Positions 1,745 to 20,808 of a DNA stretch of 64,000 nucleotides are shown piece by piece (within the stretch, counting starts at the first letter, position 1; each line of letters starts with the position of its first letter). The position numbers and the translations under genes are program-made. The notes under the pieces were generated by a model. The model was not told the DNA's origin. It did no database searches and worked only from the letters and a program-made list of their open reading frames with translations. Source of the stretch: Gammaproteobacteria bacterium (lineage in GTDB: Bacteria > Pseudomonadota > Gammaproteobacteria > SZUA-152); assembly GCA_029882975.1 (NCBI GenBank), contig JAOUJW010000008.1, positions 1-64,000 of the forward strand. The letters run 5' to 3'.

Positions 1745-1755
1745 AGTTTCTATCC

Positions 1756-2438: not shown

Positions 2439-2571
2439 AAAGACCTCCTTCAAGTTGGTAGGCCTCCATGATATGATTTGAGGATTACGCCGCAAGAATG
2501 TTCATAATTGATCGCTTACCTAAAGATAACCCCGATTGATCCTCAGCCCCCAATAATTCCTTGTCCATAGT

Positions 2572-6222: not shown

Positions 6223-7011
6223 TTTCCCCTCCCTGACCCCAACCGTGAAAACGAAAATATACAGTTAATTGTGCTCCCTACAACTTACCAGACCGTATAC
6301 AAAATTTGTCATCTGGCCGACATAAGACTACTTTGGGTAATACTTCCCACTTTTTGGTAGACTAACCTAACAACTTTGGAAAAAGAAAGTTTTAATTACC
6401 AGGTCATAACAATAAAGGCAATTCAGTACGTAGTGTATATAAAAAGTAGCCATTTAATTTCAAACTGACCACATCTTATGACAATTCGAGTAATAGCGAT
6501 TCTAGTTGTTTTGATTTAGCTCATTTTTGGGAGTCCGAAAAATGACTTCACCAACTTTTTCTACTCTGATTCTACTGCCCCCTGGGAAGACGTGGACGCC
6601 TTTTTTATCTAGACCGATCGGACCTTTTTATCCATAAATCAAAATTCGGGTTAGGTTCCGTGGAGCAATGTAGACTGTGGGTGACAGCTATGGCATCAAA
6701 GCACAGTGATTCATCGCTGCACAATGGCGACTATGAGTGTGGCATCGGTAGATCAGGAAAGTTTGGGAGTGTGAATGTTTATAGACTGACAATGCGTTAA
6801 GACTGTATAACGCCCTGGACCAAACCGGGGCTACATAGTACCTATTTACTTCGCTATTTAGGTTAGATCAAAAAATCCGTTACACGGTTAAGCGCTATAC
6901 AGAATTTTTCGCTCTCGCGGAGTTAAGTAGCTGTCACCGTTATCTCTGAGAGGTATGAACTTGACGTTTTCATCACAATACCTTTTTTCACCGACTTTCA
7001 CAGGCCGGCCA
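6223..7011. other. Long gene-free stretch
   Basis: About 790 bp with no coding frame I can support. The only structured item noticed is the 16-bp imperfect dyad TGTCATCTGGCCGACA at 6307-6322, upstream of the membrane protein gene, which resembles the dyad at 7581-7596. It may be a decayed junction between mobile segments. Confidence 0.4.
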
Positions 7012-7242
7012 TTATCTGACAGCTCTTAGCCAGATTTCCCAGTACATACTTGGACGGCACCAGATTAAAATTCCATGATGCTCCATCATCACGCGGCCCC
7101 TCTCTGCTTTCAGCACCCTCGGGTACCCATCAGGGCGGATTATGTGAGTTGTCCCTAGCCTAGTAAGTTGCTGAATCTGTTTGCTCGGTATTTTGTACCC
7201 AGTGATTTCCTGTATACCTTCTTGTGTAAGGTAGTCACTCAT
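7012..7242 (-). CDS. DUF4224-type small phage protein
   Basis: The 76-residue protein begins MSDYLTQEGIQEITGYKIPS and continues KQIQQLTRLGTTHIIRPDGYPRV, the pattern of DUF4224 proteins (LT-EEI--LTGYK--S-QI--L---G) that commonly accompany phage integrases and may act in excision control. It is the second of two tandem paralogues, 15 bp after the first. No integrase is adjacent, which is unusual for the family and suggests loss or rearrangement. Confidence 0.7.
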   Translation of the reverse strand: MSDYLTQEGIQEITGYKIPSKQIQQLTRLGTTHIIRPDGYPRVLKAERGRVMMEHHGILIWCRPSMYWEIWLRAVR

Positions 7243-7257
7243 TTCTCATACTCGAAT

Positions 7258-7473
7258 CTATAGCGCATCATAGTCGGGTTCGATTGGGCTTTTGGTTGCG
7301 TTGTTTTGCTCTACTCCACCTGTGACAATCAAGAAGTTTGCTCTACTGACCACTGGAGATCCGTCTGCTCGACTAATAACGGTAAATCCCATTTCCCGCA
7401 ATCGTCTGATTTGAGTTGAGTTTCGCTTTGCGCGTGTCAGATCGAAAATTTCCTCCTTTGTTAGATTTAACAT
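7258..7473 (-). CDS. DUF4224-type small phage protein, paralogue
   Basis: A 71-residue protein with the same plan as its downstream neighbour: MLNLTKEEIFDLTRAKRNS, then TQIRRLREMGFTVISRADGSPVV. The start follows an AGGAAAGAGG site. The conserved GYK of DUF4224 is replaced by RAK. It reads divergently from the excisionase-like gene at 7645, making this intergenic stretch a likely control region. Confidence 0.65.
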   Translation of the reverse strand: MLNLTKEEIFDLTRAKRNSTQIRRLREMGFTVISRADGSPVVSRANFLIVTGGVEQNNATKSPIEPDYDAL

Positions 7474-7580
7474 CCTCTTTCCTAGACTGTTGCCTGGATA
7501 ATAACCGGCGGGGTCAATTTGGCCTACGCCTCAACATCCGATTGATTTAGATCTTTCTAATGCATTCCTTTGATAAAGTA

Positions 7581-7596
7581 TGTCGCGCAGCCGACA
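7581..7596. promoter_or_regulatory. 16-bp dyad between divergent small phage genes
   Basis: TGTCG-cgcagc-CGACA is a perfect 5-bp-arm dyad in the divergent gap between the DUF4224 gene and the excisionase-like gene. A related sequence stands at 6307-6322. An operator for one of the nearby helix-turn-helix proteins is plausible, not shown. Confidence 0.3.
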
Positions 7597-7644
7597 TTTA
7601 TGGTGGGTAGAGTTGGTGGATAATAACATCCAGGGGATTATGTA

Positions 7645-7866
7645 ATGCGAAGAATGCTTTATTACAAAGAATATGTTGACCTGGCCTTTGCGGGTACTAA
7701 AAAACCCAGCCCGAACACCGTTAAGAAATGGGTGCGAAATGGACAGCTTGACGGAAGGTTCATCGGCTCTATGTGCTACGTATTTGTGGATGATGAGATC
7801 AAGATTGCTCCCACGGGAAATAAGCTAGTCAATGAGACTCTCAAAGAATTTGGTTATTTAAAATAA
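7645..7866 (+). CDS. Small excisionase-like protein
   Basis: A 73-residue protein beginning MRRMLYYKEYVDLAFAG, with TVKKWVRNGQLDGRFIGSMCYVFVDD. The layout of a short helix-turn-helix followed by a wing and the VKKW-NG-L-G pattern is that of MerR-like Xis/AlpA proteins, which bend DNA at attachment sites or control integrase expression. AGGGG precedes the start. It is followed after 5 bp by the 383-residue gene, so they are probably co-transcribed. Confidence 0.55.
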   Translation: MRRMLYYKEYVDLAFAGTKKPSPNTVKKWVRNGQLDGRFIGSMCYVFVDDEIKIAPTGNKLVNETLKEFGYLK

Positions 7867-7871
7867 GCCGC

Positions 7872-9023
7872 ATGAATAAAACTATATCTGAAATACCCGA
7901 CACCTATTCCAAACAAAACAAACGGCATGAAATAAGTAGGGACCTACTATATGAACTTGTATGGTCATTTCCTTTAACCGTTTTGGCGAAACACTTCGGG
8001 ATATCTGATAGAGGTCTAGGGAAAGCTTGTGAAAGAGCACACATTCCGTTGCCTGGTCGTGGCTTTTGGGCTAAAGAACAAGCTGGATATGACTTAGAAA
8101 AAAAACCTTTACCTGAGTGTCCAGAAGAGTATTACGAGTATTTCCACTTTACCCCAAACGAGACAAGTTTTCCCGCGGACCTACCGAAGGAAGACGTACT
8201 TAGTGGAATAATACCTTTTGTTGCCCCTATTACTGAAACTGACTTTGCGGTTCCGATAATTAAAAAGGCCCAGAAATACTCAACGCAATTAAAGCCTGAT
8301 AGATATGGAAGAATATGCGCAAGATTCGGTGTCAAATTTAGTGTTCATCCTAAATCAGTTGATAGAGCACTACGCTTTCTAGACGCCCTAATCAAATCTA
8401 TGAGTAACTTGGGTCATAAGCATAAGACTGAAAAGAACGAGGCATCCACTTCAGGTTTTGTGGTAAACGGAAGCTTTGTTTCATATTCACTAGTGGAAAA
8501 ATCTAAACAGCAACTCTTAACAGAAGAAGAATACGAACGTAGAGTGGCGTCCCGTATTATCGCCCGAGACTCTGACAAATATAAGTATGTATCGACCGGT
8601 GTTTTCACATTCTCTATCGATAGTTACTGGGTGGGAAATGTTCGAAAGAGTTGGTCTGATACTCCAAACACTACCGTTGAAGACCAAATTGCCCCCATCA
8701 TTTATGCCTTTCAAAAGGGTGCCGAAAATATAAAGGAGGCAGAAAAGAAACGGAAGCAGCAAGAACAAGAATGGGAGAGAGAACGGCTTGATAGAGAAGC
8801 GGAACGAAGGCGCCAAAAAGAAGAGCAGGAAAGGTTAGATGCCCTGATTGCCGAAACCGATGCTTGGATAACTGCATGCAACATTCGGCAGTATGTTGAC
8901 GCACTATATAATCAAGCCAAATTGAACGGGGCTGTAAACAACGATCTAAAACAATGGGTTGAATGGGCGAGTGAAAAAGCGGATGAGATTGATCCATTAA
9001 ATCAGAAAGAGACCGAGAGTTGA
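7872..9023 (+). CDS. Unknown protein with N-terminal HTH and C-terminal coiled coil
   Basis: 383 residues. The region about 19-60 (ISRDLLYELVW, TVLAKHFGISDRGLGKACER, PLPGRGFWAK) is a recognisable helix-turn-helix-type motif found in uncharacterised proteins of phages and integrative elements. The middle is unassigned. About residues 275-325 form a charged coiled coil dominated by KKRKQQEQEWERERL. I know of no experimentally defined function. A DNA-binding role is inferred from the motif. Its stop overlaps the TTG start of a broken small gene. Confidence 0.6.
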   Translation: MNKTISEIPDTYSKQNKRHEISRDLLYELVWSFPLTVLAKHFGISDRGLGKACERAHIPLPGRGFWAKEQAGYDLEKKPLPECPEEYYEYFHFTPNETSFPADLPKEDVLSGIIPFVAPITETDFAVPIIKKAQKYSTQLKPDRYGRICARFGVKFSVHPKSVDRALRFLDALIKSMSNLGHKHKTEKNEASTSGFVVNGSFVSYSLVEKSKQQLLTEEEYERRVASRIIARDSDKYKYVSTGVFTFSIDSYWVGNVRKSWSDTPNTTVEDQIAPIIYAFQKGAENIKEAEKKRKQQEQEWERERLDREAERRRQKEEQERLDALIAETDAWITACNIRQYVDALYNQAKLNGAVNNDLKQWVEWASEKADEIDPLNQKETES

Positions 9024-9168
9024 TCCCGAGAGACTATTTCACTGAAAAAGAAACTGCCGAATATTGCTGCGTTGGTGCCACGAAGTTCAAGGAGAGTTAG
9101 TTCACGAATACGGGGTCTGCAACGGCAATTTCGGTAAGAAAAAGCTATATAGGAAATCCGATCTGTAG
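9020..9168 (+). pseudogene. Frameshifted excisionase-like gene
   Basis: From a TTG overlapping the preceding stop codon the frame reads LIPRDYFTEKETAEYCCVGA, TKFKES and then stops. One frame over, the text continues LVHEYGVCNGNFGKKKLYRK and SDL-stop. Joined, this gives a ~49-residue AlpA/Xis-like protein (EKETAEY, G-KKLYRKSDL). A one-base change near 9093-9100 explains the break. It is too short and damaged for a firm family call. Confidence 0.45.
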
Positions 9169-9218
9169 CGGTTAATTGAAACAGTGGCATTCAAAACAGA
9201 GAATCTGAGAGGTAACTT

Positions 9219-9434
9219 ATGACTGAAAACAATTATCCGATGGTGTGGGTGCGGACCAAGCGATTTAAAGAACTCCACGGTTGCACCGATGATCAAATGT
9301 ACTGGATGTGCGAAAACCTTTTTACCGAGGGTAAACACTACAAATATGTCAAGGTTGGCAAAAAGCGCCAGTTGAGGCTTAATATTGTCGAAATCGACCA
9401 ATGGTATGACAGACAAAAGAGCGTAGGCTCATGA
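9219..9434 (+). CDS. Small excisionase-like protein
   Basis: 71 residues, preceded by GAGAGG. The sequence has VWVRTKRFKELHGCTDDQM, a short helix-turn-helix, then KHYKYVKVGKKRQLRLNIVEIDQWY, the basic wing and hydrophobic end typical of phage excisionases. It overlaps the following 47-codon gene by 4 bp (ATGA). Together with its neighbours it forms a run of small Xis-like genes that lacks a nearby integrase. Confidence 0.6.
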   Translation: MTENNYPMVWVRTKRFKELHGCTDDQMYWMCENLFTEGKHYKYVKVGKKRQLRLNIVEIDQWYDRQKSVGS

Positions 9435-9574
9435 ATTGCCTGCCCATCCAATGGATTAGAAAAGAGAAGTTTTGCGAGATTTCAGGGATAACGCTGAAAG
9501 CCGTTAACAAGAAAATTGAAAACGGCGCCGGAGGAAGGAAGAATACAATCTTTGGATTTCAGAATGCTGATTGA
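9431..9574 (+). CDS. Short excisionase-like protein, probably truncated
   Basis: 47 residues starting MNCLPIQWIRKEKFCEISGI followed by TLKAVNKKIENG. This resembles the N-terminus of the preceding protein (VWVRTKRFKELHGCTDDQM), so it appears to be a diverged copy. The expected basic wing after KIENG is missing; the frame instead runs AGGRKNTIFGFQNAD and stops, suggesting a frameshift. It overlaps the gene before by 4 bp. Confidence 0.4.
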   Translation: MNCLPIQWIRKEKFCEISGITLKAVNKKIENGAGGRKNTIFGFQNAD

Positions 9575-9607
9575 GCTAATAATCAACTTTATCAAGAGGA
9601 GGCATAT

Positions 9608-10087
9608 ATGGAAAAGCAAACAGTTCGCGATATCGGTGTTGGTGCTGCTGGCTCTGTAGTTGCAACGATATTGCTATTGTTAACAGCAAACACAGTAGGT
9701 TTATTCAAGAAATCTCTTGACAGCACTCAAGTAAGCGAAGCTGCAAATGAAATAGTCAACAAACATTCTGACATTTTGGCTGGGAAGTTAAAGAACGACC
9801 CAAAATTTATCCAGCTTGTAAAGGGTGAAAAGGGCCTCCCTGGGCCGCAGGGTGTTGCCGGACCGCAAGGTGCTGCAGGCCCCCCTGGATCTTCCTCAAT
9901 CTTTCTAAAGGCTGGGAACAACGGTTCAGCTATTTGTAATGATTTCTGTGGTCGCTTTGGTGCTGCATGTATCGGAGGACTCCCTGCTAGCGGCGAGAAA
10001 ACCATAAAGAATACCGATATGTTTGGTTGCGGGACAAAACGTCATTTACACAATAACATGATCTGTGTGTGCGCAAAAAATATTTAA
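9608..10087 (+). CDS. Membrane-anchored collagen-like protein
   Basis: 159 residues behind a strong GAGGAGG site. The first 35 residues include a glycine-rich hydrophobic segment (about 10-30, SVVATILLLLTANTVGLF) that could anchor or export the protein. A region of about 40 residues follows, then eight or so Gly-X-Y triplets (GEKGLPGPQGVAGPQGAAGP), then a C-terminal domain with seven cysteines (CNDFCGRFGAACIGG and MICVCAKNI). Collagen-like triplets with a small globular head occur in phage fibre proteins and in bacterial surface proteins. The short repeat suggests a trimerisation stalk. The function is unknown; the cysteine pattern suggests disulphides outside the cytoplasm. Confidence 0.65.
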   Translation: MEKQTVRDIGVGAAGSVVATILLLLTANTVGLFKKSLDSTQVSEAANEIVNKHSDILAGKLKNDPKFIQLVKGEKGLPGPQGVAGPQGAAGPPGSSSIFLKAGNNGSAICNDFCGRFGAACIGGLPASGEKTIKNTDMFGCGTKRHLHNNMICVCAKNI

Positions 10088-10165
10088 AACTTTTGACTTA
10101 AGATTTTATCCATTCCACAACTCCACTGATCGCGATTTAGTTATTTAGGGCAGTAACGACACAAA

Positions 10166-10196
10166 CATCAACCCCGGCACTTGGCCGGGGTTGATG
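10166..10196 (+). terminator. Strong hairpin terminator
   Basis: CATCAACCCCGGC and its exact complement GCCGGGGTTGATG form a 13-bp stem with a 5-base loop, followed by cttt. It stands between the convergent collagen-like gene and the 70-residue gene and could serve both. Confidence 0.7.
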
Positions 10197-10202
10197 CTTT
10201 AG

Positions 10203-10415
10203 TCACTTTTTGATTTCCGCACACTCGGAAACTAGTCCCTGTATTTCACAAAATGCTTCCTCGGCTTTATCGATATGTGCCAACATAGCGTTAGCTACAC
10301 TTTGTGCCTCCTGGTTGTCCGGGTCTACATGTGATACCCAGTAGCACATAGCCTTTAGTGGAGATATTGCGTCTCGAAACTGAGATTCGAATTTTCGGGC
10401 GGTTTCAATGCTCAT
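10203..10415 (-). CDS. Unknown small helical protein
   Basis: 70 residues, start MSIETARKFESQFRDAISPL, preceded by GGGGGTG. It is predicted helical from composition (VANAMLAHIDKAEEAFCEIQ). It overlaps the upstream 123-residue gene by 4 bp, so the two are translationally coupled. I recognise no family. Confidence 0.5.
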   Translation of the reverse strand: MSIETARKFESQFRDAISPLKAMCYWVSHVDPDNQEAQSVANAMLAHIDKAEEAFCEIQGLVSECAEIKK

Positions 10416-10783
10416 TTTGCACCCCCATTCAGTTCGGCTTCCCTTTGCTTCAGATACTCACCAACTGCGTATCGAAGTTCGCCGGAGGAATTAAAAATGA
10501 GGGTCATTGCCGCGTTAATGCAGTCAACAATCTCAAAGGTCAAATTATTGACTTTGTTAGATAACGCTTGTCGCAAGAGCGAGTGTGCTTCCGACAAATC
10601 ATGGTCGATATTGCTGGTTGCGTCTTTAAGATCCCATTCTTTGCTCATGCCGCACCCCCTGAGACTAAAAATAGCCAGGTTGACCAGGATCAGTACTGCG
10701 GTAATCCATGAAAGAGTGTGGGTGGTTATTGCTATACGGTCTCTGCGTTTTATGCTTTGTATAACTTCATTGAAATTATCCAT
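10412..10783 (-). CDS. Unknown single-pass membrane protein
   Basis: 123 residues with a GGAGAC site before the start. A basic N-terminus (SIKRRDR) precedes one transmembrane segment (about 23-41, LSWITAVLILVNLAIFSL). The rest is a soluble helical domain containing SEAHSLLRQALSNKVN. The arrangement suggests a membrane-anchored cytoplasmic or periplasmic helper. Holin or spanin roles were considered, but nothing specific supports them. It is co-transcribed with the 70-residue gene. Confidence 0.5.
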   Translation of the reverse strand: MDNFNEVIQSIKRRDRIAITTHTLSWITAVLILVNLAIFSLRGCGMSKEWDLKDATSNIDHDLSEAHSLLRQALSNKVNNLTFEIVDCINAAMTLIFNSSGELRYAVGEYLKQREAELNGGAK

Positions 10784-10923
10784 GGTGAGTCTCCTATTGT
10801 TTTATTTCTGCCACCCATCAAGTGCTAAATTGATAAGGTGGCAAGCCGTACAGGTTAGCACTACCGCCCAATAGGATACGGCCCCCTTTCGAGGCCTGTA
10901 CAGCTCGCCAAAAACTACAGGCA

Positions 10924-10994
10924 CAAAAAAACGCGCTCAAGGCACGTTGAGCCTACTGGTTTCGGGGTGCTAATCCCGGCTGGATATAGCCAGC
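10924..10994 (-). ncRNA. Candidate small RNA or leader with terminator
   Basis: On the minus strand a promoter-like pair TTGACT (11024-11029) and TAGGAT (11002-11007) with a 16-bp spacer is followed by a hairpin GCTGG/CCAGC, a possible CGGG/CCCG stem, and then GCTCAA/TTGAGC, GCG and seven T. That is a promoter, two or three stems and an intrinsic-terminator-like end within about 110 bp. It could be a ~70-nt regulatory RNA or an attenuated leader for the 123-residue gene 140 bp downstream. The terminator stem is only 6 bp, so confidence is low. Confidence 0.35.
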
Positions 10995-11203
10995 TAATAC
11001 AATCCTAGCACTCCCACAGCACGAGTCAAGTGTAAGTTTTGTTAGTTGAGAATAACGAAAAGTTTCGCCCATTCAATGACGTATTTCCTTCGACACTAGA
11101 TGGCTAGCCATGATTTTCATTGAGCTGGCATTTTTGTGGTATAAGGATAATTTTGCAGTGGTTGTAGGAAGTGATAAACCAAACCAACTTTTGGGAGAGG
11201 ATT

Positions 11204-12298
11204 ATGACATCAAGAATCGTCGTAGTGGTAGTTGTCTCAATGTTTTATGCAGGACTTACTACCGGTGCCTCAGAAATTGGTGAGTCGAAAGGAAAATCTG
11301 CAACAATTAAAAATATTGAGTCTGAGATGAATTCTGGCACTGACAGTGTCGTAACCAGCCAAAAGAACAGCTCATCTCCTGAGTCTAGTTATTCTAAAAT
11401 ATTCTCTAACGTACCTCCTGTTGAGTCGTATATAGAGATATTATACGTTATATTCACTATTTTAGTCACTTGGGGTTTGTATAGAGTTAACAAAGCCCAA
11501 CGATACGACGCGCTTATGAACCACTATTCGCAAATACATCAAAATGTATGGAGTGAATCAGTTGCCGACGTTAGATTATGGCTATTGCATGATGACTCGT
11601 ACAAACGGGAGATCGAAAATATATTAATGCGTAGAAACAACCTAGAAACACAAGAACAACATCTTGGGCTAACTGCTAGCGAGTACAAAAAGTTAGATAA
11701 ATTAGACAACTTTATAAATGTAATACAACGATCAGAACTTTTACCTGAATTCATCAGGAGCCGGGATCGAAGCATGGGAGTGCCATATTTTGATTGGTGG
11801 ATAGAAGCGTTAATTGAGAAAAATCGATCTGAAGTAATTAAATACATTGAGTACCACTACTCAAAACTTCACAAAACCATACAAAGAACCGCTGACAAAC
11901 TCGGCGTTGAGACGACATCTCTTTCCGATGAATGTAGTTACGATTACCTTTATTCAAAAATAAATTGTTGGGTAAAGAAATATTCAGACTATATTGCCGA
12001 CACCAACACCGCCGAAAAGAGAGATTCAACAACGCATGACAGGAGAGAGAAATTTCGAATTGACCATAGTATAAAAAATATAAATACAAATACTGATGAT
12101 ATAGCAGTGGGGCAGGAAAATAAAATTATTACTTTCACTTGCTCCAATAATATGCGGCACTTTGTACAATTAAAGAAAATCGCAAATACGAACCCAACAT
12201 ATTCCGTTAAAGACAGTAACGACGTATGCAAAACGACCCCTGTCTATGTGGATGATACCAACGTTAAAATACATTATGACCCAGATTGCAGAAGTTGA
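11204..12298 (+). CDS. Unknown membrane protein with signal-like N-terminus
   Basis: 364 residues from the ATG preceded by GGGAGAGG; an upstream in-frame start 33 bases earlier lacks a good site and would bury the hydrophobic leader. The N-terminus (TSRIVVVVVVSMFYAGLTT) looks like a signal peptide or anchor. A second membrane segment lies near 80-100 (SYIEILYVIFTILVTWGLY). The remainder is a hydrophilic helical domain with DWWIEALIEKNRSEVIKYIE. The gene stands alone and reads opposite to its neighbours. Base composition is AT-rich. I recognise no family, although DUF4760-like membrane proteins have a comparable plan. Confidence 0.6.
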   Translation: MTSRIVVVVVVSMFYAGLTTGASEIGESKGKSATIKNIESEMNSGTDSVVTSQKNSSSPESSYSKIFSNVPPVESYIEILYVIFTILVTWGLYRVNKAQRYDALMNHYSQIHQNVWSESVADVRLWLLHDDSYKREIENILMRRNNLETQEQHLGLTASEYKKLDKLDNFINVIQRSELLPEFIRSRDRSMGVPYFDWWIEALIEKNRSEVIKYIEYHYSKLHKTIQRTADKLGVETTSLSDECSYDYLYSKINCWVKKYSDYIADTNTAEKRDSTTHDRREKFRIDHSIKNINTNTDDIAVGQENKIITFTCSNNMRHFVQLKKIANTNPTYSVKDSNDVCKTTPVYVDDTNVKIHYDPDCRS

Positions 12299-12452: not shown

Positions 12453-12953
12453 TCAATCGTGTCGATAGATCCCCTTTGCGATATCTTCGGCAGCATCTGT
12501 AACATCTGACCGAACAACTCTATCGGCTATTGACCCACTGGCTCCGCCAAAACCGTTTTGCCATGTTGCACCAATGATGATTTTCCCGGTGTCTGAGGAA
12601 ATTACTTTAACGGATATGCTTTGAGGGTGTCTGTCGTATCCTGAGACCGTTCGGACTTGAAGTAGGCCATCAATCCCTTCTTCTTTTAGCTTCCGGATAT
12701 TTCTAGGTTCCAATATCTCAATTTCGGTTAGATTCAAACGGATCATCATACTGGAGACTTGTGCTGTGTCGAACACGTCAAAACCATACTTAACAAGCTC
12801 CAACCCGATTGCGTCGCCCAGTAGTCCGCGATTCGGGTACAGGGCTATTGTTTTTAAATCGGCCACTGGTGAGGATGAAACAGTCAATCTTGCCGGAGCG
12901 CACCCCAGTAAAATACTCGACAACGCTATACTAACGATGAGTTTATAGCCCAT
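12453..12953 (-). CDS. Putative lipoprotein
   Basis: 166 residues. The N-terminus MGYKLIVSIALSSILLGCAP ends in a clear lipobox (LLGC), so Cys18 should be lipidated. The rest alternates strands and helices in a way seen in small TolB/CsgG-like periplasmic domains: ADLKTIALYPNRG, GLELVKYGFDVFDTAQV, GLLQVRTVSGYD and IIIGATWQNG. That resemblance is a guess from pattern only. It could be a lysogenic-conversion-type cargo gene. It is last in the leftward run of satellite genes and converges with the 364-residue gene. Confidence 0.6.
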   Translation of the reverse strand: MGYKLIVSIALSSILLGCAPARLTVSSSPVADLKTIALYPNRGLLGDAIGLELVKYGFDVFDTAQVSSMMIRLNLTEIEILEPRNIRKLKEEGIDGLLQVRTVSGYDRHPQSISVKVISSDTGKIIIGATWQNGFGGASGSIADRVVRSDVTDAAEDIAKGIYRHD

Positions 12954-13042
12954 ATTGTCCCTCCCGCTTGCAATCTATACAAACTACATTCCGATAGCAA
13001 GTCTACCTGGAACTGCGAATATGAATGTTGTAATTTTGTTGC

Positions 13043-13408
13043 TTATTTTGGGTTTTTCGGAGCTTGTTGATCCGGATCTGAATTGCGAATTTCGCTTTTA
13101 CTGATGGTAGCTTCCAATCCCAACAGCTCGGTAAGTCCCGAGTGATACGCCATTAATTTGTATTGGGCAACTATTCCATATCCGATCACTGTTGATAGCA
13201 TTACGGTACAGGCTACCATCGACAGGACTATTGCTTGTAAATCCAACAATCCGTTTGAATATATAAAGACCCCAGCGACTACTAACAAACACAAGCTACT
13301 ATATGCAACAAACCCATATACCATCCGTTTGCAGGCTTTCTCTGTTCGGACTACAAGCTCTCCAAGTTCCAGGCTTAAATCCTGCTGAAAAGTTTTTCGA
13401 ATACTCAA
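13043..13408 (-). CDS. Unknown two-segment membrane protein
   Basis: 121 residues with two hydrophobic segments (about 31-52, VYGFVAYSSLCLLVVAGVF, and 58-82, IVLSMVACTVMLSTVIGYG) after an amphipathic N-terminal helix. The C-terminus is polar. Size and topology would fit a phage holin-like protein or an immunity membrane protein, but nothing conclusive is seen. It follows the candidate virion protein by 21 bp on the same strand. Confidence 0.5.
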   Translation of the reverse strand: MSIRKTFQQDLSLELGELVVRTEKACKRMVYGFVAYSSLCLLVVAGVFIYSNGLLDLQAIVLSMVACTVMLSTVIGYGIVAQYKLMAYHSGLTELLGLEATISKSEIRNSDPDQQAPKNPK

Positions 13409-13429
13409 GAGTTTGCAACCAACATTAGA

Positions 13430-14125
13430 CTACAATTCGCCCCCGGCTTTTGCGCCGGCTAATGCACCGAGTTGCGCGCCTTCTTTACCCCCGAAGTAGG
13501 CACCAATGATAGTACCTACAACCATCCCCACGGCTTGGCCTTTCCCTTTCGCTTCCTCTGCGGCCAGTTGAGCCTCAAAACGTTGAGCGGCTTCGAGCGC
13601 GTTATTCAGTCCCGCTTGTACGTTGGCCCCTATATTGGATTCAAAGTTACTCTGAGCCAGCATGGTGTTATAGTAAGATTGTCGGGTTTTGTGCTGGGCG
13701 TCGATCAAAGCCAGTTCAATGTTAAGTTCTTGCAGCGTGGTTTTTGCTCTGAAATCCGCTTCCTGCTGTGAGAACTCCGCTTCACCACGCGAAAGTGCAT
13801 CCTGGGCAAACGAAGAGCCCAACACTCTGCGTCGAGACAGATTCTCTCTTATGTTCCCAATGGCTTGGCGTCTGCGGTTTCGAATGGATTGGACGCCGGT
13901 TTCAGTTAAACGCCCGAACCCCGGTTTGAGTTGACCCCTGATGCTCCCCAGTTCCGAGACATTAAGATCCGATGCAGACTTCAAGCTTCCCAATAAATCC
14001 GTGAGTTGCTGTGTTCTTTGGACGTTGGCCGAACCATTGTTCATGGTGACATTCAAGCCACCAGAGGAGAACCCTTTCGGCACAAATGGTTTGGGTTTAT
14101 CGCCGGATCCAAATAGACTTGCCAT
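13430..14125 (-). CDS. Candidate phage internal-virion / DNA-ejection-like protein
   Basis: 231 residues. It starts MASLFGSGDKPKPF, then a low-complexity N-terminal third and a long helical segment of about 110-200 rich in alanine, glutamine and glutamate (RGEAEFSQQEADFRAKTTLQ). The C-terminus is a glycine-zipper hydrophobic region (VGMVVGTIIGAYFGG and ALAGAKAGGEL). Long helix plus glycine-zipper tail is common in proteins that phages eject through the cell envelope. The position directly after a small terminase gene supports a virion role. The family call is by pattern only. Confidence 0.5.
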   Translation of the reverse strand: MASLFGSGDKPKPFVPKGFSSGGLNVTMNNGSANVQRTQQLTDLLGSLKSASDLNVSELGSIRGQLKPGFGRLTETGVQSIRNRRRQAIGNIRENLSRRRVLGSSFAQDALSRGEAEFSQQEADFRAKTTLQELNIELALIDAQHKTRQSYYNTMLAQSNFESNIGANVQAGLNNALEAAQRFEAQLAAEEAKGKGQAVGMVVGTIIGAYFGGKEGAQLGALAGAKAGGEL

Positions 14126-14153
14126 TCAGTTACTCCTCAAAGATTCTACCGAT

Positions 14154-14594
14154 TTACCTAATGCGACGGAAATTTCCTTCTGCACCCGTAGTTTCCTGTT
14201 TCGTTGCTTGCTCTTGGAACAATGCGTAATACCGCGCTAAAAACTCTTGAGCTTTTTGGCGGCTGGAAGGTGTTTGCCCGAACTTCGCTTCATTGGACCA
14301 CATTTTTATTAGCTCATCGGGAGTTACAATGTAGTTTTCCTCCAGTTCTTGCGCTTCCTGAGCGGCTTTGAGAAGACGCTGAACGCCCTGGTGACGTTTT
14401 AGAGTAGTGCCTTGTACAGCCAGTGACTTCTTTGTTCCGGCATAACCTGCGGCTCTACAAGCAGCCCACGCGGGGGCTACACCATCCATCACGGCTTTCA
14501 CATAGGCCACTTGTCGTTCTGTGCAACCGAATGGTTTCTCCCCAACGGTTTCCCAGAATTCCTCAAGTGTGGTCAGCGGTTTTTCTTCGTCCAT
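14154..14594 (-). CDS. Terminase small subunit (TerS)
   Basis: 146 residues. The central section (about 22-78) is typical of Terminase_2-type small subunits: TERQVAYVKAVMDGVAPAWA, then CRAAGYAG, then AVQGTTLKRHQGVQRLLKAA, a helix-turn-helix that recognises the packaging site. The C-terminal part (TPDELIKMWSNEAKFGQTPS) resembles the oligomerisation end. Small subunits normally pair with a large ATPase/nuclease subunit; none is found within the window. A lone terS beside an integrase, AlpA and a replication protein is the arrangement by which PICI satellites redirect a helper phage's packaging. A decayed prophage is the alternative. Confidence 0.75.
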   Translation of the reverse strand: MDEEKPLTTLEEFWETVGEKPFGCTERQVAYVKAVMDGVAPAWAACRAAGYAGTKKSLAVQGTTLKRHQGVQRLLKAAQEAQELEENYIVTPDELIKMWSNEAKFGQTPSSRQKAQEFLARYYALFQEQATKQETTGAEGNFRRIR

Positions 14595-15171
14595 TTCTCA
14601 GCCTTTTAAAATTACTAAGCATCGGAAAAAGTTTAGCGCAATATTATACAAATTACCAATATAAACAATGTGTTACATTAACCCTTCTTAACAGAGATTA
14701 ACGGATAGCTGAATAAACTTGAAGCACGAACAAAAATCTAAGGAACTCTCCAAGACAAGATAAGGTGAACATGGTGAACCTGCGAGTTATTAATAATTCA
14801 GGAAGCTTTACATAATTTCCCGGCGGAAAAATTTAGTGAATTAGTGAAAATCGGCTGGATATATGGTGGGTGACTGCGTGTACGCCTAAGGCCCTAGGGG
14901 GTGGCCCCCGGCCTCTGCTTTGCCTTATAATAATCTATCACTTAGCGTTATATTCAATGACTTAGCGATCTATTTAACATAATGGTGATTACACGCACTT
15001 CCCTGTAAATTCAATAACTTATAGTACACCTCCATGTTACTCAGCACACCTGTTAAACATGCAAATATCCTATCTCATTGAATTATTTATAAATAAAGTC
15101 ACAGTGAAAATTGCTGCCTAATATTCACCATAAATTCTTAATTGCAGCTATAAACATTAGGCAAGCGCCTA
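14595..15171. other. AT-rich gene-free gap, candidate origin or packaging site
   Basis: About 577 bp with no gene. It holds short direct repeats: GGTGAAC twice near 14763-14780, TTAGTGAA twice near 14833-14848, and ACTTAGCG twice near 14940-14966. A G/C hairpin CTAGGGGG-tgg-CCCCCGG stands near 14892-14912 within otherwise AT-rich DNA. The gap lies between the replication genes and terS, where a satellite origin and cos or pac site would be expected. No function is demonstrated. Confidence 0.35.
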
Positions 15172-15459
15172 CTAAATAACACTCAACCAATAGTTCCTCG
15201 CCCATTTGCCGCCTGGTACCTGTTTCCACTCCACGTCCACATTAAAGCGCGATAGCTCCTTTAGTACATTGGATTTCTTAACGGGTACTGTGGTGCCTTC
15301 CACAATGTAACCGTCCGAGATCTCTTGGATTACGTTAATGTAGTAACTGGCTCTCGTGGTTGCCGGTATGATGTAGAATATCTGGTTGCCCGCCTGCCCC
15401 CGCAAATGGCGATCAGGTTTGAGATCTATGGATTTGGTCAATTGCAAACTTAGCTGCAT
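15172..15459 (-). CDS. Unknown small protein of the replication operon
   Basis: 95 residues starting MQLSLQLTKSIDLKPDRHLR. The middle is strand-rich (IFYIIPATTRASYYINVIQE, GYIVEGTTVPVKKSN) and the end is WKQVPGGKWARNYWLSVI. It overlaps the upstream gene by 10 bp and is last in the run starting with the DUF3987 gene, so a role in element replication or its control is likely. I recognise no family. Confidence 0.5.
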   Translation of the reverse strand: MQLSLQLTKSIDLKPDRHLRGQAGNQIFYIIPATTRASYYINVIQEISDGYIVEGTTVPVKKSNVLKELSRFNVDVEWKQVPGGKWARNYWLSVI

Positions 15460-15875
15460 ACTCTAATCTCGAGCAATTCATTCCCAAAGGTGTTGAAACA
15501 GAATTGCCTTGCATCCTCAAGGTTACAGCCAGGTGCTACCATTTTCAGCCAAGTCTCGGGGCTTGTATTTAGACGGTACTCATAGACCTTGATAGCTAAT
15601 CTGGCTTGTTTCTCCGCATCCTTTCTCGGGATGTTTGCCTCAAACTCCAAGATTGCCGCTCTTTCTTCAACTGCTTCCCGTATGTTTTCCCTAAGCTCGA
15701 CTTCTGTCGGTTTTGTCAGTCCTTCACATAGCGCTTTTTGAGATTTTTTGTTGTGTAACTTCAATCGTGTTAGCCACGTTAATTTTTCAGATTCCTTATC
15801 TGACCCACTGACAGAACTGACAGAACCCCCTTTTGGCGGTTTTGTCAGTTCGTCGTCTAGTGAATTCTCAAACAT
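15450..15875 (-). CDS. Unknown charged protein coupled to the DUF3987 gene
   Basis: 141 residues from the ATG that overlaps the DUF3987 stop codon by 8 bp (ATGTTTGA). A longer frame upstream is entirely inside the DUF3987 gene, so the short start is preferred. The protein is strongly helical and charged (ELRENIREAVEERAAILEFE, PRKDAEKQARLAIKVYEYRL) and starts with a polar linker (KPPKGGSVSSVSGSD). It may assist the replication protein. No family is recognised. Confidence 0.5.
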   Translation of the reverse strand: MFENSLDDELTKPPKGGSVSSVSGSDKESEKLTWLTRLKLHNKKSQKALCEGLTKPTEVELRENIREAVEERAAILEFEANIPRKDAEKQARLAIKVYEYRLNTSPETWLKMVAPGCNLEDARQFCFNTFGNELLEIRVCS

Positions 15876-17406
15876 GGCATAGGCTCGGGTGAATATAGAA
15901 TACATTCTGACTTCGTCCGGTTGTTGGGATAACCTCAGATCTAACCCAACCAAAATCCTCCAGAACCTCCAATGCAGCTGCCACATCTGCGGACCGACTT
16001 AATTTAGTCCAACCGTTTCGATATATGTCCCGTGCCGTAAATTGATTAGCCACTTCATGTTTTTTGATACGCTTCAACAGCTCTCTTGCGGATTCCATCG
16101 AAGGATCTGCTATTGATGAGTAGAGCCGGTTAGCATGGCTCTCCAAGTATTCGCACCACGCAGCAGCCTTTATTGTGCTATTTTCACCAACATTTGTTTC
16201 GGTTGTATTTCCACTCACAAACTCGACTAAATGGAAAATCATAGCCAAGGAGGGCATTAGGGAACGATACTTCGCTAGATGGGCTTCTAACGCGCTAGAT
16301 GAAATTGTTCCATCGCGCAGTCTTTTTTCAAGCTTCTGTCGCCATGTATTGAATATCTCCTGTGACTCCGGAGAAAACTTTAGAGTTGGGATAGAATCTG
16401 AGAAATGGGAAACAGCCCCAATTTCCATCGGATTGATATTATCTAATCGTTTGAAGATTTCGTATGTTTTCTGGAGTTCGTTGTTGTCCGGTATCCTGTC
16501 TACGTTTTTCCAAGTGTTGGAAGAGTCCGGCCAGACTAACATTTGAAACCGTTGAATTAAACCATCATCACCGGTACCGCCATTGTGGGCACGCCTTATA
16601 TAATCTCCCAGTGGGCCTGGCTGAATGCTTCCTAACAGAGAAATGCATAAAGAGGGAACATGCAAAGTTCCTCGCCCGATTCTGTCTACTGTAAAACTCC
16701 CAGTCCCATTCCACGATTCAAGGTAAAAGGAGCGATCACCTTCCCGACCTTGCTTTTCAAGGCTGTTGAGCCAGCCAGTCAATTCATCCCTATACACTAG
16801 AAGCCCGTTCGGATTTTCAAGGAGAAGTTCTCCTAACTTTTCCACTGTCGGATCTTCGCTTTTATAGCGCCTCAGAACTGGTTTATCGGCCGTTTCAATA
16901 GTCTTGTTACGAAAATGACTAAGATCTTCGTCATTTTTCACTGCTCTCTTGATTTGGTCCTTTTGGGCAGATTGGCGCGCCTGATAGATTTCCAGCTCCA
17001 CTTTATATGTTCCTAAGGCTTTTTCGTGCTCTGAAATTGCCTCTGTCACTAATTTGTTGAGTGGTTTCATTACTTCGGTGATTGAAGGTGATTTCATCAC
17101 AGATGGTCTACCAACGATGGCCCCCCACAAATTCGGGGTAACTAGCCACTCGTGATCCAGAGCTTTGGGTTGCATGGAGACTTGGCGACCGATAATTGAA
17201 CCGAGCAATACATTTATTGCTGCCGCAGAAAAGTCCGGTGGAATTTGAAGTCGATCCGAAATATCCAAAATACGAGGACGCAAAGCATCTGGAATTATAT
17301 CTGGATCCAACTCGTTGACCGGAGGTAAGCCCTGTGGCAACGGCTCTGGGTCGAGCCATGGATCTTCGGTTGTAGTGTTTAGTTGGGCTAGGCTCATGTC
17401 TTGCAT
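15868..17406 (-). CDS. DUF3987 domain replication protein (primase/helicase-like)
   Basis: 512 residues. DUF3987 proteins are P-loop ATPases of mobile elements, usually paired with or replacing a primase-helicase. Features seen: LPPVNELDPDIIPDALRPRI at the start of the domain, the Walker-A-like GRPSVMKSPS at about 99-108, LLVYRDELTGWLNSLE near 220-235 as Walker-B-like acidic motif, and GSIQPGPLGDYI further on. The C-terminal ~100 residues (TARDIYRNGWTKLSRSADVA) look like a winged helix. It is the main replication gene of the element and leads a coupled operon with the two small genes after it. No toprim-type primase motif was noticed. Confidence 0.8.
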   Translation of the reverse strand: MQDMSLAQLNTTTEDPWLDPEPLPQGLPPVNELDPDIIPDALRPRILDISDRLQIPPDFSAAAINVLLGSIIGRQVSMQPKALDHEWLVTPNLWGAIVGRPSVMKSPSITEVMKPLNKLVTEAISEHEKALGTYKVELEIYQARQSAQKDQIKRAVKNDEDLSHFRNKTIETADKPVLRRYKSEDPTVEKLGELLLENPNGLLVYRDELTGWLNSLEKQGREGDRSFYLESWNGTGSFTVDRIGRGTLHVPSLCISLLGSIQPGPLGDYIRRAHNGGTGDDGLIQRFQMLVWPDSSNTWKNVDRIPDNNELQKTYEIFKRLDNINPMEIGAVSHFSDSIPTLKFSPESQEIFNTWRQKLEKRLRDGTISSSALEAHLAKYRSLMPSLAMIFHLVEFVSGNTTETNVGENSTIKAAAWCEYLESHANRLYSSIADPSMESARELLKRIKKHEVANQFTARDIYRNGWTKLSRSADVAAALEVLEDFGWVRSEVIPTTGRSQNVFYIHPSLCHV

Positions 17407-17455
17407 GGTTGCCCATCTCTTTGGAAAAATATTTGTTTTCCGACTATCATAGAGT

Positions 17456-17623
17456 TCATCGAAAAGCCTCCATCCGTTCTAATACGAATGCTATGGGGGC
17501 TGTTTGAATCCAGTTATTGCAAGGCTGACAAATTTTTAGGTGATCAGCCCTGTACGGTTGGCCTTTGATTGCTTCACGGCATAGTGCGCATTTGCATAAT
17601 TTATATTGTCTGATAGAATTCAT
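17456..17623 (-). CDS. Small zinc-finger-like protein
   Basis: 55 residues from the ATG preceded by AAGGA; a longer frame upstream has no ribosome site. Two CxxC pairs, CKCALC and CQPC with DHLKI between, can form a zinc ribbon. The C-terminal part is a helix (FVLERMEAF). It lies between the AlpA-type regulator and the DUF3987 gene. Similar tiny zinc-ribbon proteins occur in phages and satellites as regulators, but no function is established. Its leader overlaps the start of a candidate RNA on the other strand. Confidence 0.5.
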   Translation of the reverse strand: MNSIRQYKLCKCALCREAIKGQPYRADHLKICQPCNNWIQTAPIAFVLERMEAFR

Positions 17624-17626
17624 GTT

Positions 17627-17723
17627 TATAGTCCTTAGTGTTACTCCATTCGAGTGGTGGCACACTTGAATGGTTGGTTGAAATCAAGTTATGTTTGGCC
17701 TCGCATTTTTGCGGGGCCTTTTT
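17627..17723 (+). ncRNA. Candidate antisense small RNA opposite the alpA-side leader
   Basis: On the plus strand, against all neighbouring genes, there is a promoter-like TTGCAT (17593-17598), 16 bp, TAGAAT (17615-17620). An 11-bp stem CCATTCGAGTG / CACTTGAATGG with one G-U pair follows (17646-17656 and 17663-17673), then an 8-bp stem GGCCTCGC/GCGGGGCC (17697-17718) with five T: a good intrinsic terminator. The predicted RNA is about 97 nt. It would be complementary to any transcript running from the AlpA gene into the zinc-finger gene, including that gene's ribosome site. Antisense control of regulators by short RNAs is known in P1 and P4 phages (C4 and CI RNAs); homology to these was not tested. 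Confidence 0.45.
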
Positions 17724-17745
17724 GTTTGTGTTCATGGAAATAGTT

Positions 17746-17934
17746 TCACGCGGTTTGTGAAAGAGTGCGGCCGTCAATAAAAGCTTGAACGGCCTCATGG
17801 GTATACATTACTTTGCTACCCACTTTCACGAAAGGAAGCTCATACCGACCTGTGGAACGCCAGACACTTAGGGTTCCGGTGGTAACTTGTAACTTCTGAG
17901 ATACTTCTCTTGGGCTTAGTAGGTTTTGAGACAT
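17746..17934 (-). CDS. AlpA/HTH_17-type regulator (putative excisionase)
   Basis: 62 residues, MSQNLLSPREVSQKLQVTTG then TLSVWRSTGRYELPFVKVGS and KVMYTHEAVQAFID. This is the DNA-binding fold of AlpA and excisionase proteins: LSPREVS-L start, W-R helix, VG-KV-Y wing. Such proteins control integrase expression or excision, and AlpA is the main activator of Gram-negative PICIs. It stands between the integrase side and the replication genes, as in those satellites. Confidence 0.75.
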   Translation of the reverse strand: MSQNLLSPREVSQKLQVTTGTLSVWRSTGRYELPFVKVGSKVMYTHEAVQAFIDGRTLSQTA

Positions 17935-18038
17935 TTATTTCTCCTCACGTCTAATTACGTTAAGAGAAATATAATTGCAGGTATTCTTATCTACCAGGGA
18001 CAAAAGTGATCTAAAAGATTTCCGTTTGTCCCCCTAAC

Positions 18039-18716
18039 TTAGACGGCTTCTTTGGATCTGATTGTTTTTTTAACGTATTCTTCAGTTATTTCCGTACCAA
18101 ATATGACACTAGCTGTAGTAGCCACTGCAAGGTTCATAGGTGCTCCAAATTCCGATCTCATAAATGCTGATAGCTGTCGAACAAAGATTCGTATGTTGGC
18201 ACTGCCTGATCCTGGATTGTTTACCTTTGGTGCTTCTATTTCTACATATTTTGATGCATTAATAGCGATTTCCTCTAAAGCGTCCCTTGCTTCATGGTTA
18301 TTATGAAACTCCCTATTTTTTACTATCATTTCCCTCAGTTCGATTGCTCGATCGTATATATCCGTGAAAAACTTTTCATTTTTTACTGGAGATAGCTCCC
18401 TGAAAAACTCTTTACGCTCAAAACTAGCTATTCCTGTCTCACAAACTTCCCAGAATTTCTCATACTGACTTATATTTCTTACCTGCTTAGAAAGCCTAGA
18501 CCACACCTGCTCCATTTCTGGATCAGTCAATAGTTTTTTTAAGTATTCAATAGTTTGGCCTAGTGTAAGTTGTCCAAAAGCATTTACAGATCTTTCTTCC
18601 TCTACCTTCATCCACTCCCTACCAGGATACCCAAGCTTATGCATGTCCTGAACTAAATTAATTTTTCTCTCTAGAAACGAAACCAAATGCGCTGGAGCCC
18701 AGGCAGGAAACTTCAT
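18039..18716 (-). CDS. Unknown helical protein of the element
   Basis: 225 residues from MKFPAWAPAHLVSFLERKIN, where AAGGGGTG precedes the ATG; a longer frame 39 bases upstream has no such site. The protein is soluble and helical with segments such as EQVWSRLSKQVRNIS and EMIVKNREFHNNHEARDALE. It has no motif I recognise. It lies between the integrase and the AlpA-type gene on the same strand, so it may be regulatory or cargo. Confidence 0.5.
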   Translation of the reverse strand: MKFPAWAPAHLVSFLERKINLVQDMHKLGYPGREWMKVEEERSVNAFGQLTLGQTIEYLKKLLTDPEMEQVWSRLSKQVRNISQYEKFWEVCETGIASFERKEFFRELSPVKNEKFFTDIYDRAIELREMIVKNREFHNNHEARDALEEIAINASKYVEIEAPKVNNPGSGSANIRIFVRQLSAFMRSEFGAPMNLAVATTASVIFGTEITEEYVKKTIRSKEAV

Positions 18717-18813
18717 CGCACACCCCTTCTTTAGTGTGCCTTCATGGAAAACCAAGCCAGATCGGTGAAGGTTGCCAACTTTTCGGGAGCTACCCTAGGC
18801 TTGGTATATCTGA

Positions 18814-20094
18814 TTAGATAGTCTGTTGTTTCAACTCCACCACTTCCGCCTTTGGCTTAATCTCGGCGGAAATCAGGATGTAGTCAGTAATTTGCTGCAT
18901 GGGTTTTCTAAGTCGTTCAACGTCGATATTGATATAACCAGCAGTCACATCATGCTTCATCTTGTGATTAAGGAGCCTTTTCAAAGCATAAGCGGAAATA
19001 TCCCGGTTCTCCGCAATGGTGGCAAAGGTTCTACGCAAATCGTGAGCAGAAAACTCAATACCAGACCTGGTTTTAACTTTATTGAGTTGTTTTACCGCAT
19101 TGATGATATGCCCTGTTTTGCTTTGCTCGCTGGGGAACACATATTGACTCTCTGATTCCTTCTGGCGTGTTTGTAGCATTTCCAATAAATGATCTGTCAG
19201 GGGCAAACACAGCGGGTCTTGGTTTTTGGTGTCAAGGACAGTGAACGTCTTCCCAACAAAATCCACATTTTCCCATTTTAGTCTGGCAGCTTCCCCACGC
19301 CTGAGACCTGTCAGCAAAAGGAAAACCAAATAGTCTCTGACGGTTTTTCGGAACACTAGACGATTTTCGAAAAAATCTTCTTTTTCGTCCTTTTCCTTTT
19401 CGCCAAGACTGTTCACAGCAGCAAACCATTGCTTCAATTGATGCGCCTTAATGTCTCTGCGCCTGCGATCCACCCTGAACCATGCCTTTGTGTGGGAAAG
19501 GCGTTTTACCGGGTTATCGGTGAAAATAGGGTCTCCGTTCTCATTCTCGTATTTCTCCTGGGCGAAATTAAACAGAGCCCGAAGCACTCGCATTGCATTG
19601 TTTGCTCTTGCTTCCGACTGCTTACCACGCTTTGTATGGCGTTTCTCCACCATGTCCCGGGTAATCTTGGCTAAGGGTTTGGTTTTCCAGTCATCGAATG
19701 ATTCATCTAATACCCGCCGGTAGTCCTTGATAGTGCCAGGCTTAAGGGCTTTTCTGGTGGTTAAATAATCTTCAAAAACTTGCTGCAAAGTGATTAACTT
19801 CGTCCTTTCCGCTTTTCGTAATGAATTGGGGTTCACTCCCTCCGCGAGGGTCGCCAGCTCGGCTTTAGCCCGTTTCCGAGCCTGCTCGATTTTCATATTG
19901 GGAAACCGGCCCAGCGTCACTCTCACCGGGTTTTTACCCTTGGGCCTTGCGTACACCTGGTAAGATTTCACACCATTCGCGGTGACGCACAGTAAGAGGC
20001 CGTTGACCTTCTTGTCATAGTAGTAAGTGGCTTTCTGGGGAGTAGGAATGGCTTCAAGCACTTTCTGAGTGAAATTAACGACAGTTTTCGGCAT
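18814..20094 (-). CDS. int: Tyrosine integrase, P4 type
   Basis: 426 residues. The N-terminal ~90 residues are the DUF4102 arm-binding domain (YYYDKKVNGLLLCVTANGVK). A core-binding SAM-like domain spans about 100-195. The catalytic domain has Arg265 in LLTGLRRGEAARL, Lys290 in DTKNQD, His351 and Arg354 in SAHDLRRTF, His377 in LNHKMKHD and nucleophile Tyr387 in AGYINID; all are present, so the enzyme should be active. P4-type integrases recombine into tRNA 3' ends. Here the gene starts about 160 bp from a tRNA-Phe 3' fragment, the expected attachment site. Confidence 0.93.
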   Translation of the reverse strand: MPKTVVNFTQKVLEAIPTPQKATYYYDKKVNGLLLCVTANGVKSYQVYARPKGKNPVRVTLGRFPNMKIEQARKRAKAELATLAEGVNPNSLRKAERTKLITLQQVFEDYLTTRKALKPGTIKDYRRVLDESFDDWKTKPLAKITRDMVEKRHTKRGKQSEARANNAMRVLRALFNFAQEKYENENGDPIFTDNPVKRLSHTKAWFRVDRRRRDIKAHQLKQWFAAVNSLGEKEKDEKEDFFENRLVFRKTVRDYLVFLLLTGLRRGEAARLKWENVDFVGKTFTVLDTKNQDPLCLPLTDHLLEMLQTRQKESESQYVFPSEQSKTGHIINAVKQLNKVKTRSGIEFSAHDLRRTFATIAENRDISAYALKRLLNHKMKHDVTAGYINIDVERLRKPMQQITDYILISAEIKPKAEVVELKQQTI

Positions 20095-20252
20095 GGCAAT
20101 CTCCAGGTAGAAAATCCAATGCTACGCTGATGCTACAAGATACGTTAAAAGTAGTTTAGCCTAATTAAGCCGAGATAACAAATAACTAACTGTATAATAA
20201 AAGGAATTAAGGATGGTTAAGGTTCGTTAATTTCTGTATATCTCTTAAAATA

Positions 20253-20300
20253 GGACTGAAAATCCCCGTGTCGGTGGTTCGATTCCGCCCCTGGGCACCA
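20253..20300 (+). other. Attachment-site copy: 3' fragment of tRNA-Phe
   Basis: The 48 bp starting GGACTGAAAATCCCC match the anticodon arm of tRNA-Phe (anticodon GAA), followed by the variable loop, a T arm with GGTTCGATTCC, the acceptor strand CCTGGGC, discriminator A and CCA. The sequence before it cannot form the D arm or pair with the acceptor, so the 5' half of the gene is absent. This is what integration into a tRNA leaves at the end away from the intact gene. The crossover must lie near the anticodon loop. Confidence 0.85.
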
Positions 20301-20393
20301 CCTTCTGATTTTTATCCAAATTCTTTTGCTTGTGTTTCGCCAAGGCGCTGTTATTAGTGCGGAATCGAACACTCTTTATTTCCGTGTCGGGGT

Positions 20394-20808
20394 TGATGCG
20401 CGCCTTCCCTGGCGCGCACCCCTCCGGGGCGCCGCGATACGCGGCGTCCAAAATCATTCCCGACGATTTTGTGATCCGCGCTTCCCTGGCGCGCACCCCT
20501 CCGGGGCGCCGCGATACGCGGCGTCCAAAATCATTCCCGACGATTTTGTGATGCGCGCTTCCCTGGCGCGCACCCCTCCGGGGCGCCGCGATACGCGGCG
20601 TCCAAAATCATTCCCGACGATTTTGTGATGCGCGCCTTCCCTGGCGCGCACCCCTCCGGGGCGCCGCGATACGCGGCGTCCAAAATCATTCCCGACGATT
20701 TTGTGATGCGCGCTTCCTTGGCTCGCACCCCTTCGGGGCGCCGCGATACGCGGCGTCCAAAATCATTCCCGACGATTTTGTGATGCGCGCTTCCCTGGCG
20801 CGCGCACC
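20394..20808. repeat. Tandem array of five 77-78 bp palindromic units
   Basis: The phrase CTTCCCTGGCGCGCACCCC recurs starting at 20404, 20481, 20558, 20636, 20713 (with changes) and in partial form at 20790: spacings 77, 77, 78, 77, 77. Each unit holds three inverted repeats: GGCGC..CCGGGGCGCC, GCCGCG-ata-CGCGGC and AAAATC..GATTTT. It is non-coding, although open frames run through it by chance on both strands. It lies between the island end and the first core gene. Confidence 0.9.

Follow-up and report, generated by a model that had tools for sequence, protein, structure and literature searches.

A probable phage satellite in a gammaproteobacterial tRNA-Phe gene, with its own small terminase and a podovirus virion gene

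Gene content of the element

The DNA analysed here, called the window, covers 64 kb from the start of contig C8 of a gammaproteobacterial genome (G000), and its left part belongs to an element integrated in a tRNA-Phe gene that is probably a phage satellite of the phage-inducible chromosomal island (PICI) type. The core of this element is a single minus-strand run. Read from the right, it comprises an integrase gene, the int-alpA RNA, an open reading frame (ORF) in the yfjH position of the E. coli K-12 element CP4-57, an AlpA-like helix-turn-helix (HTH) protein, a small ORF and a DUF3987 replication gene, and the same run continues through two overlapping small genes, a 577-bp gap, a gene for the terminase small subunit (TerS), a virion gene, an ORF with a pair of hydrophobic helices and finally a lipoprotein-like ORF. 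An earlier interpretation made from the letters alone (the sequence-only reading) had placed integrase, AlpA-like, DUF3987, TerS and virion genes in one leftward run, and all are present. The features of this core are:

18814-20094, minus strand: P4-type tyrosine integrase (Arm-DNA-bind_3 and Phage_integrase domains; phrog_1, E 6e-57)
18739-18805, minus strand: int-alpA RNA (RF02996; 58.1 bits against a gathering score of 35.8)
18039-18719, minus strand: ORF between int and alpA, its start put at the internal ATG at 18719 (CP4-57 yfjH position)
17746-17934, minus strand: AlpA-like HTH regulator (HTH_17, E 2e-7; phrog_66, excisionase and transcriptional regulator)
17456-17665, minus strand: small ORF of 69 aa (from the ORF list)
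15868-17406, minus strand: DUF3987 (YfjI-type) replication protein (PF13148, E 2e-82; phrog_2373, DNA helicase, E 1e-32)
15450-15986, minus strand: small gene coupled to the DUF3987 gene (by position and distant relatives)
15172-15459, minus strand: small ORF overlapping the preceding gene (from the ORF list)
14595-15171, no strand: AT-rich non-coding gap of 577 bp (36% GC, weak repeats)
14154-14594, minus strand: TerS (phrog_51, E 9e-10; phrog_641, E 2e-5)
13430-14125, minus strand: podovirus virion protein of 231 aa, in the slot of the ejection protein gp7/gp14 (IMG/VR homologues, synteny with P22)

The integrase, taken to be intact by the sequence-only reading, has both domains and keeps the catalytic R-H-R-Y motifs; the int-alpA RNA had been missed. 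The ORF that follows resembles yfjH in position only, with no sequence match to it, and distant relatives of gene 15450-15986 stand in the matching place in several other DUF3987 elements. The gap before TerS had been called origin-like. Its AT-richness stands, but its repeats are too weak to support an origin; it is a possible origin or packaging site, and no packaging-site motif common to relatives was found in it. The IMG/VR scans yielded no close relatives of TerS, the DUF3987 protein or the integrase.

Two genes from short-tailed phages

The TerS identification is based on the phrog_51 and phrog_641 matches, and this is the sole phrog_51 match in the genome. A single-sequence structure prediction of the protein reached a pLDDT (predicted local distance difference test score) of 43 and was not used. 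No TerS homologue was found among 369 genomes of the class. The TerS and virion ORFs are both intact, lie 28 bp apart with plausible ribosome-binding sites, and belong to the same run as the replication genes.

ORF 13430-14125 gave no useful family match in Pfam and PHROG scans and no homologue in a tblastn search of 50,697 phage records; its identity comes from IMG/VR. A first scan returned a single phage contig, of 4.8 kb, where a homologue with 49% identity lies downstream of a capsid gene, and alignment-based scans returned 11 contigs and then, in the second, 45. Of the 45 contigs, 44 have the homologue directly after a nozzle-position gene of about 530 aa, the placement of gp7/gp14 genes (after the tail or nozzle gene, before two larger ejection genes), and 38 have a capsid gene of the phrog_1357 type upstream of it. 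Where the contig extends, two larger genes follow, the first mostly of 250-650 aa and the second mostly of 500-1660 aa. The phage order is large terminase (TerL), portal, scaffold, capsid, adaptor, nozzle, a small gene, the virion homologue and the two larger genes; P22 has a matching order, in which the corresponding slot is that of gp7, followed by gp20 and gp16. By this homology to 45 podovirus contigs the ORF, a candidate virion protein in the sequence-only reading, is established as a virion protein of phage origin. Outside phage gene clusters the island copy is the only homologue seen. Three weak matches among the 369 genomes (E 4e-4 to 8e-4), to an OmpA-type lipoprotein, a GC-rich frame with stops and a 671-aa frame, were dismissed on those E-values.

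What would such a protein do in an island? Gene order, size and a C-terminal glycine zipper make a role in DNA ejection probable. Ejection proteins of the gp14/gp7 class span 196-240 aa (PMC8954989), and the island protein retains its full length and the conserved motif PGFG...RRRVLGSSF. A BFVD fold search returned several proteins annotated as internal virion proteins (E 0.04-0.2), which were treated as a hint only, as was a fold match to T7 gp14; the model used for the fold searches had a pLDDT of 65. One phage homologue (L147:9731-10873) has a C-terminal extension matching phrog_6121, a virion structural protein, and the island copy is without it.

At least four phage contigs with the virion homologue also have a phrog_51 TerS, as does Pseudoalteromonas phage Y3, whose capsid is related. 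Since these phages carry a TerS of this family, both borrowed genes point to one kind of phage. Could they be all that is left of it? That the element is the decayed remnant of a podovirus prophage, retaining TerS and one virion gene, is very unlikely even though both genes are of podovirus kind. The phage contigs place the virion gene about ten genes past TerL, with TerL, portal and capsid between, whereas in the island it adjoins TerS; the replication and control genes are those of satellites or of CP4-57, and a third virion gene was not found in the element. Among the scanned ORFs there was no match to a TerL, portal, capsid or tail gene, whole or decayed, short pseudogene remains having had no separate search.

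Boundaries and cargo

The sequence-only reading gave the element an extent of 7.8 kb, which fell well short. The full element is 22,516 bp long, from an intact tRNA-Phe gene on contig C9 to a 48-bp copy of its 3' end in the window, or 19,989 bp after subtraction of an IS66 copy and one target duplication. The tRNA attachment scar proposed earlier proved to be an exact copy of the end of the C9 gene, and the only other copy of the 48-bp repeat in the genome is that intact gene (C9 143411-143486). Contig C9 stops 2.3 kb past the tRNA gene, and the start of C8 repeats its final 127 bp; this overlap is the left end of the IS66 element. The 8-bp target duplication of IS66, CTAAAGAT, has its left copy on C9 and its right copy at C8 2520-2527, and because it stands on both contigs they are joined in one DNA molecule. 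Outside IS66 the element has a GC content of 37-45%, against 50% in the right flank. The boundary and cargo features are:

20253-20300, plus strand: attR, the 48-bp copy of the tRNA-Phe 3' end (exact identity to C9 tRNA-Phe)
1-20300, no strand: window part of the element (contig overlap, IS66 duplication, att repeat)
C9 143411-145829 of G000, outside the window: left end of the element, 2.3 kb plus the intact tRNA-Phe gene
C9 143832-145397 of G000 (L004:433-1998), outside the window: anti-phage dCTP deaminase (NF041025, E 5e-141; PADLOC dCTPase, E 9e-165)
1-2519, minus strand: IS66-family insertion sequence in the cargo arm (Pfam DDE_Tnp_IS66, E 4e-99)
3303-4625, minus strand: Schlafen/AlbA_2 protein, cargo (PF04326, E 9e-16)
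5191-12298, no strand given: cargo genes for a 343-aa membrane protein, a 383-aa protein, a collagen-like protein of 159 aa, a 375-aa protein and others (no packaging or capsid families)
12453-12953, minus strand: lipoprotein-like ORF, final gene of the leftward run (lipobox-like sequence LSSILLGC; no family match)
13043-13408, minus strand: small ORF with two hydrophobic helices (from its sequence; no family match)

About 90 bp to the right of the attachment site, at window positions 20390-20800, lies a tandem array of near-identical GC-rich units with palindromes (GGCGCGCACCCCTCCGGGGCGCCGCGATACGCGGCGTCC...).

Pfam and PHROG scans of the completed 22.5 kb gave no match to large terminase, portal, capsid or lysis families, in agreement with the sequence-only reading, which had seen no large terminase, portal, capsid, tail or lysis gene in the window. 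That reading would have been overturned by a large terminase and structural genes just left of the window; the 2.3 kb on C9 holds neither, and the gene that adjoins the tRNA-Phe end there is the anti-phage deaminase. The collagen-like ORF (9608-10087) was considered as a tail gene and rejected, its weak matches to phage tail-fibre families covering the collagen repeat.

This content bears on a second alternative. CP4-57 (L013) shares with the island the order int, ORF, alpA and DUF3987 (yfjI), followed by defence genes, but lies beside ssrA (tmRNA) and has no TerS or virion gene. The element could be a defence island of the CP4-57 type with some other means of movement, the two phage genes being passengers, or TerS now serving just as a DNA-binding regulator. 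Cargo, the anti-phage deaminase included, makes up much of the element, and neither TerS nor the virion gene has a counterpart in the searched genomes. However, both ORFs are intact, closely spaced and provided with plausible ribosome-binding sites within the replication-gene run, and independent DUF3987 elements have TerS or virion genes in the equivalent position. This alternative to a satellite is unlikely.

Related elements and known satellites

DUF3987 relatives gathered from genomes and IMG/VR place the island in a wider series. Two tRNA-bounded DUF3987 islands, of 6.2 kb (L021) and, by a shorter 17-bp repeat, 9.1 kb (L022), have no recognised TerS. A complete 8.7 kb tRNA-bounded island from a Deltaproteobacteria metagenome-assembled genome (L033) has int, an ORF, alpA, DUF3987 and TerS without TerL or capsid, as the present island does, and differs from it in size, in its P27-type TerS (phrog_83) and in having no recognised virion gene. 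In a Lysobacterales island (L059:8250-11056) the very next gene after TerS encodes a putative phage tail protein (PF13550) that contains a Laminin-G domain; this is another pairing of TerS with one virion protein, and a DUF3987 element on a short contig (L074) also has TerS. In Thioalkalivibrio (L035:12306-15297) about 9 kb between tRNA repeats hold TerS and a major capsid protein, with no TerL or portal among the listed ORFs; the capsid gene ruled this locus out as a TerS-only island. Two capsid-forming satellite-like contigs (L113 and L117) share int and a DUF3987 replicon of the same family with the island and differ in having portal, protease/capsid, TerS and TerL genes. Some elements with this replicon have no recognised packaging gene, others only TerS, others TerS plus a single virion gene, and others a capsid-forming set. 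Because DUF3987 relatives differ in their packaging genes, the int-AlpA-DUF3987 replicon is common to these elements and the packaging part is exchanged. Nor is TerS of such elements confined to full prophages, a confinement that would have told against the sequence-only reading: L033 is a complete island, and L059 and L074 are similar. The search for islands of the same gene order that this reading had proposed gave related tRNA islands with DUF3987 and other TerS types, but no other island with the TerS/virion pair among the 369 class genomes.

Among described satellites, Gram-negative PICIs have an integrase, AlpA, a replication gene and, in some members, TerS, depend on a helper, and lack TerL, capsid and lysis genes (PMC6092414). 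The island has an integrase at one end with a specific attachment site (int 18814-20094, 48-bp tRNA-Phe repeats), an AlpA-type regulator (HTH_17, phrog_66) in place of a phage repressor (a MerR-type one being the other option in PICIs), its own replication gene (DUF3987/phrog_2373; pri-rep in PICIs) and, as packaging module, TerS (phrog_51, phrog_641); genes for a large terminase, lysis or a set of structural proteins are lacking, and there is a single virion protein. It differs in its DUF3987 replication protein and extra virion protein. The earlier description as PICI-like is supported, although a strict PICI calls for demonstrated helper induction and packaging, which for the island are predicted. 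The own capsid-forming genes of capsid-forming PICIs (cf-PICIs) are absent, with no portal, protease or capsid match.

The DUF3987 gene had been thought a less usual choice for a satellite. It is a usual one: CP4-57 has it, and phage-inducible chromosomal minimalist islands (PICMIs) use DUF3987 as primase (PMC10803314). PICMIs resemble the island in int, AlpA (HTH_17), DUF3987 as prim and defence cargo. They are defined by int, alpA and prim (DUF3987/DUF5906) downstream of fis, average 6.7 kb and encode no capsid remodelling, whereas the island differs in site (tRNA-Phe) and size (22.5 kb) and carries TerS and a virion gene.

The closest parallel to the virion gene is in EcCIMP1, a proven E. 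coli PICI of 19,963 bp mobilised by phage Kapi1 (PMC11773190); Kapi1 is taken to be a podovirus from its name (vB_EcoP) and from the P22-type genes of EcCIMP1. Its report describes three genes behind the primase as resembling DNA transfer proteins and head-morphogenesis proteins (PMC11773190). The present comparison finds a complete P22-type ejection cassette (L201:5481-10649), which comprises homologues of gp14 (phrog_651), gp7 (56% identity over 168 aa; phrog_598, DNA ejection) and gp20, together with a transglycosylase of the gp16 type (phrog_770, DNA transfer protein). Like the island, which has 19,989 bp without IS66, EcCIMP1 is about 20 kb long, uses a tRNA site, and has int, alpA, a replication gene and then podovirus ejection-type genes in the packaging position, without TerL or capsid. 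EcCIMP1 differs in its whole P22-type cassette, the lack of an annotated TerS and a TOPRIM/DUF927 primase; the island has TerS, one gp7-slot protein of another podovirus lineage and a DUF3987 replication protein.

EcCIMP1 also bears on what the virion protein does. The island could be a satellite whose virion homologue is an interference factor that poisons the ejection apparatus of the helper, not an aid to its own delivery. Satellites often interfere with helper particles (PMC6092414), and a lone ejection gene where three are usual would fit a dominant-negative action. Against this, the protein is of full length and retains its PGFG...RRRVLGSSF motif and its glycine zipper, and EcCIMP1, which keeps all ejection genes, aids its helper according to the title of its report (PMC11773190). 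Interference is somewhat improbable; it is a variant of the satellite reading on one step, and its probability overlaps with that of the reading as a whole.

A model for mobilisation

Together, these observations are probably best explained by an integrated PICI-type satellite in the tRNA-Phe gene, with a DUF3987 replicon, a TerS that redirects the packaging of a podovirus helper and an ejection protein of its own. The AlpA-like regulator would be switched on when a short-tailed helper infects the cell or is induced. Excision by the integrase at the 48-bp repeats would be followed by replication of the island by the DUF3987 protein, after which island TerS, with the large terminase of the helper, would aim packaging at island DNA. 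The product of the adjacent gene would be a satellite counterpart to the helper's gp7-type ejection protein and would enter the particle and help to deliver the DNA. Dimers of the island may be packaged in unchanged heads. This would suit its length, since 19,989 bp is about half of 41-44 kb, the size of a related phage genome and of the longest phage contigs that have the virion homologue. Because the island has integration, switch and replication genes of its own and just two borrowed short-tailed-phage genes, it most likely spreads packed in the particles of another phage.

Several results weigh against this model. Pairwise similarity between island TerS and the TerS proteins of those phages is below detection, and the TerS alignment once suggested as a check gave nothing convincing, and tblastn of the phage records found no close TerS homologue. 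Profile comparison (hhalign) of the virion protein with T7 gp14 and P22 gp7 was not significant, and its structural similarity to T7 gp14 (Z about 8) is within the noise for helical models. The TerS and virion pair was not found in any other island among the class genomes. A search of the host genome for a helper prophage of the same capsid family found none, its control being silent as well. Finally, excision, induction, packaging and transfer are predicted from gene content.

Implications for satellite biology

As far as the present searches reach, the pairing of TerS with a virion protein of the gp7 slot is new, and its general kind is known; the theme of ejection genes has one precedent in EcCIMP1. 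Might the satellites of short-tailed phages take control of DNA delivery, and not just of packaging? It is tentatively possible that they do so, with private ejection proteins of helper type, in at least two unrelated podovirus lineages. One would be that of EcCIMP1 with its P22-type cassette; the other, proposed with the same reserve, would be represented by the island's gp7-slot protein, from a podovirus with an N4-gp56-like capsid protein and paired with the island's own TerS. The island widens the satellite families built on the int-AlpA-DUF3987 replicon. Packaging and capsid size, and in some families capsid formation, are established targets of satellites, and genome ejection would add another stage of the particle cycle to these. 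If this holds, the injection apparatus would be partly satellite-made, which could alter which cells the satellite DNA enters.

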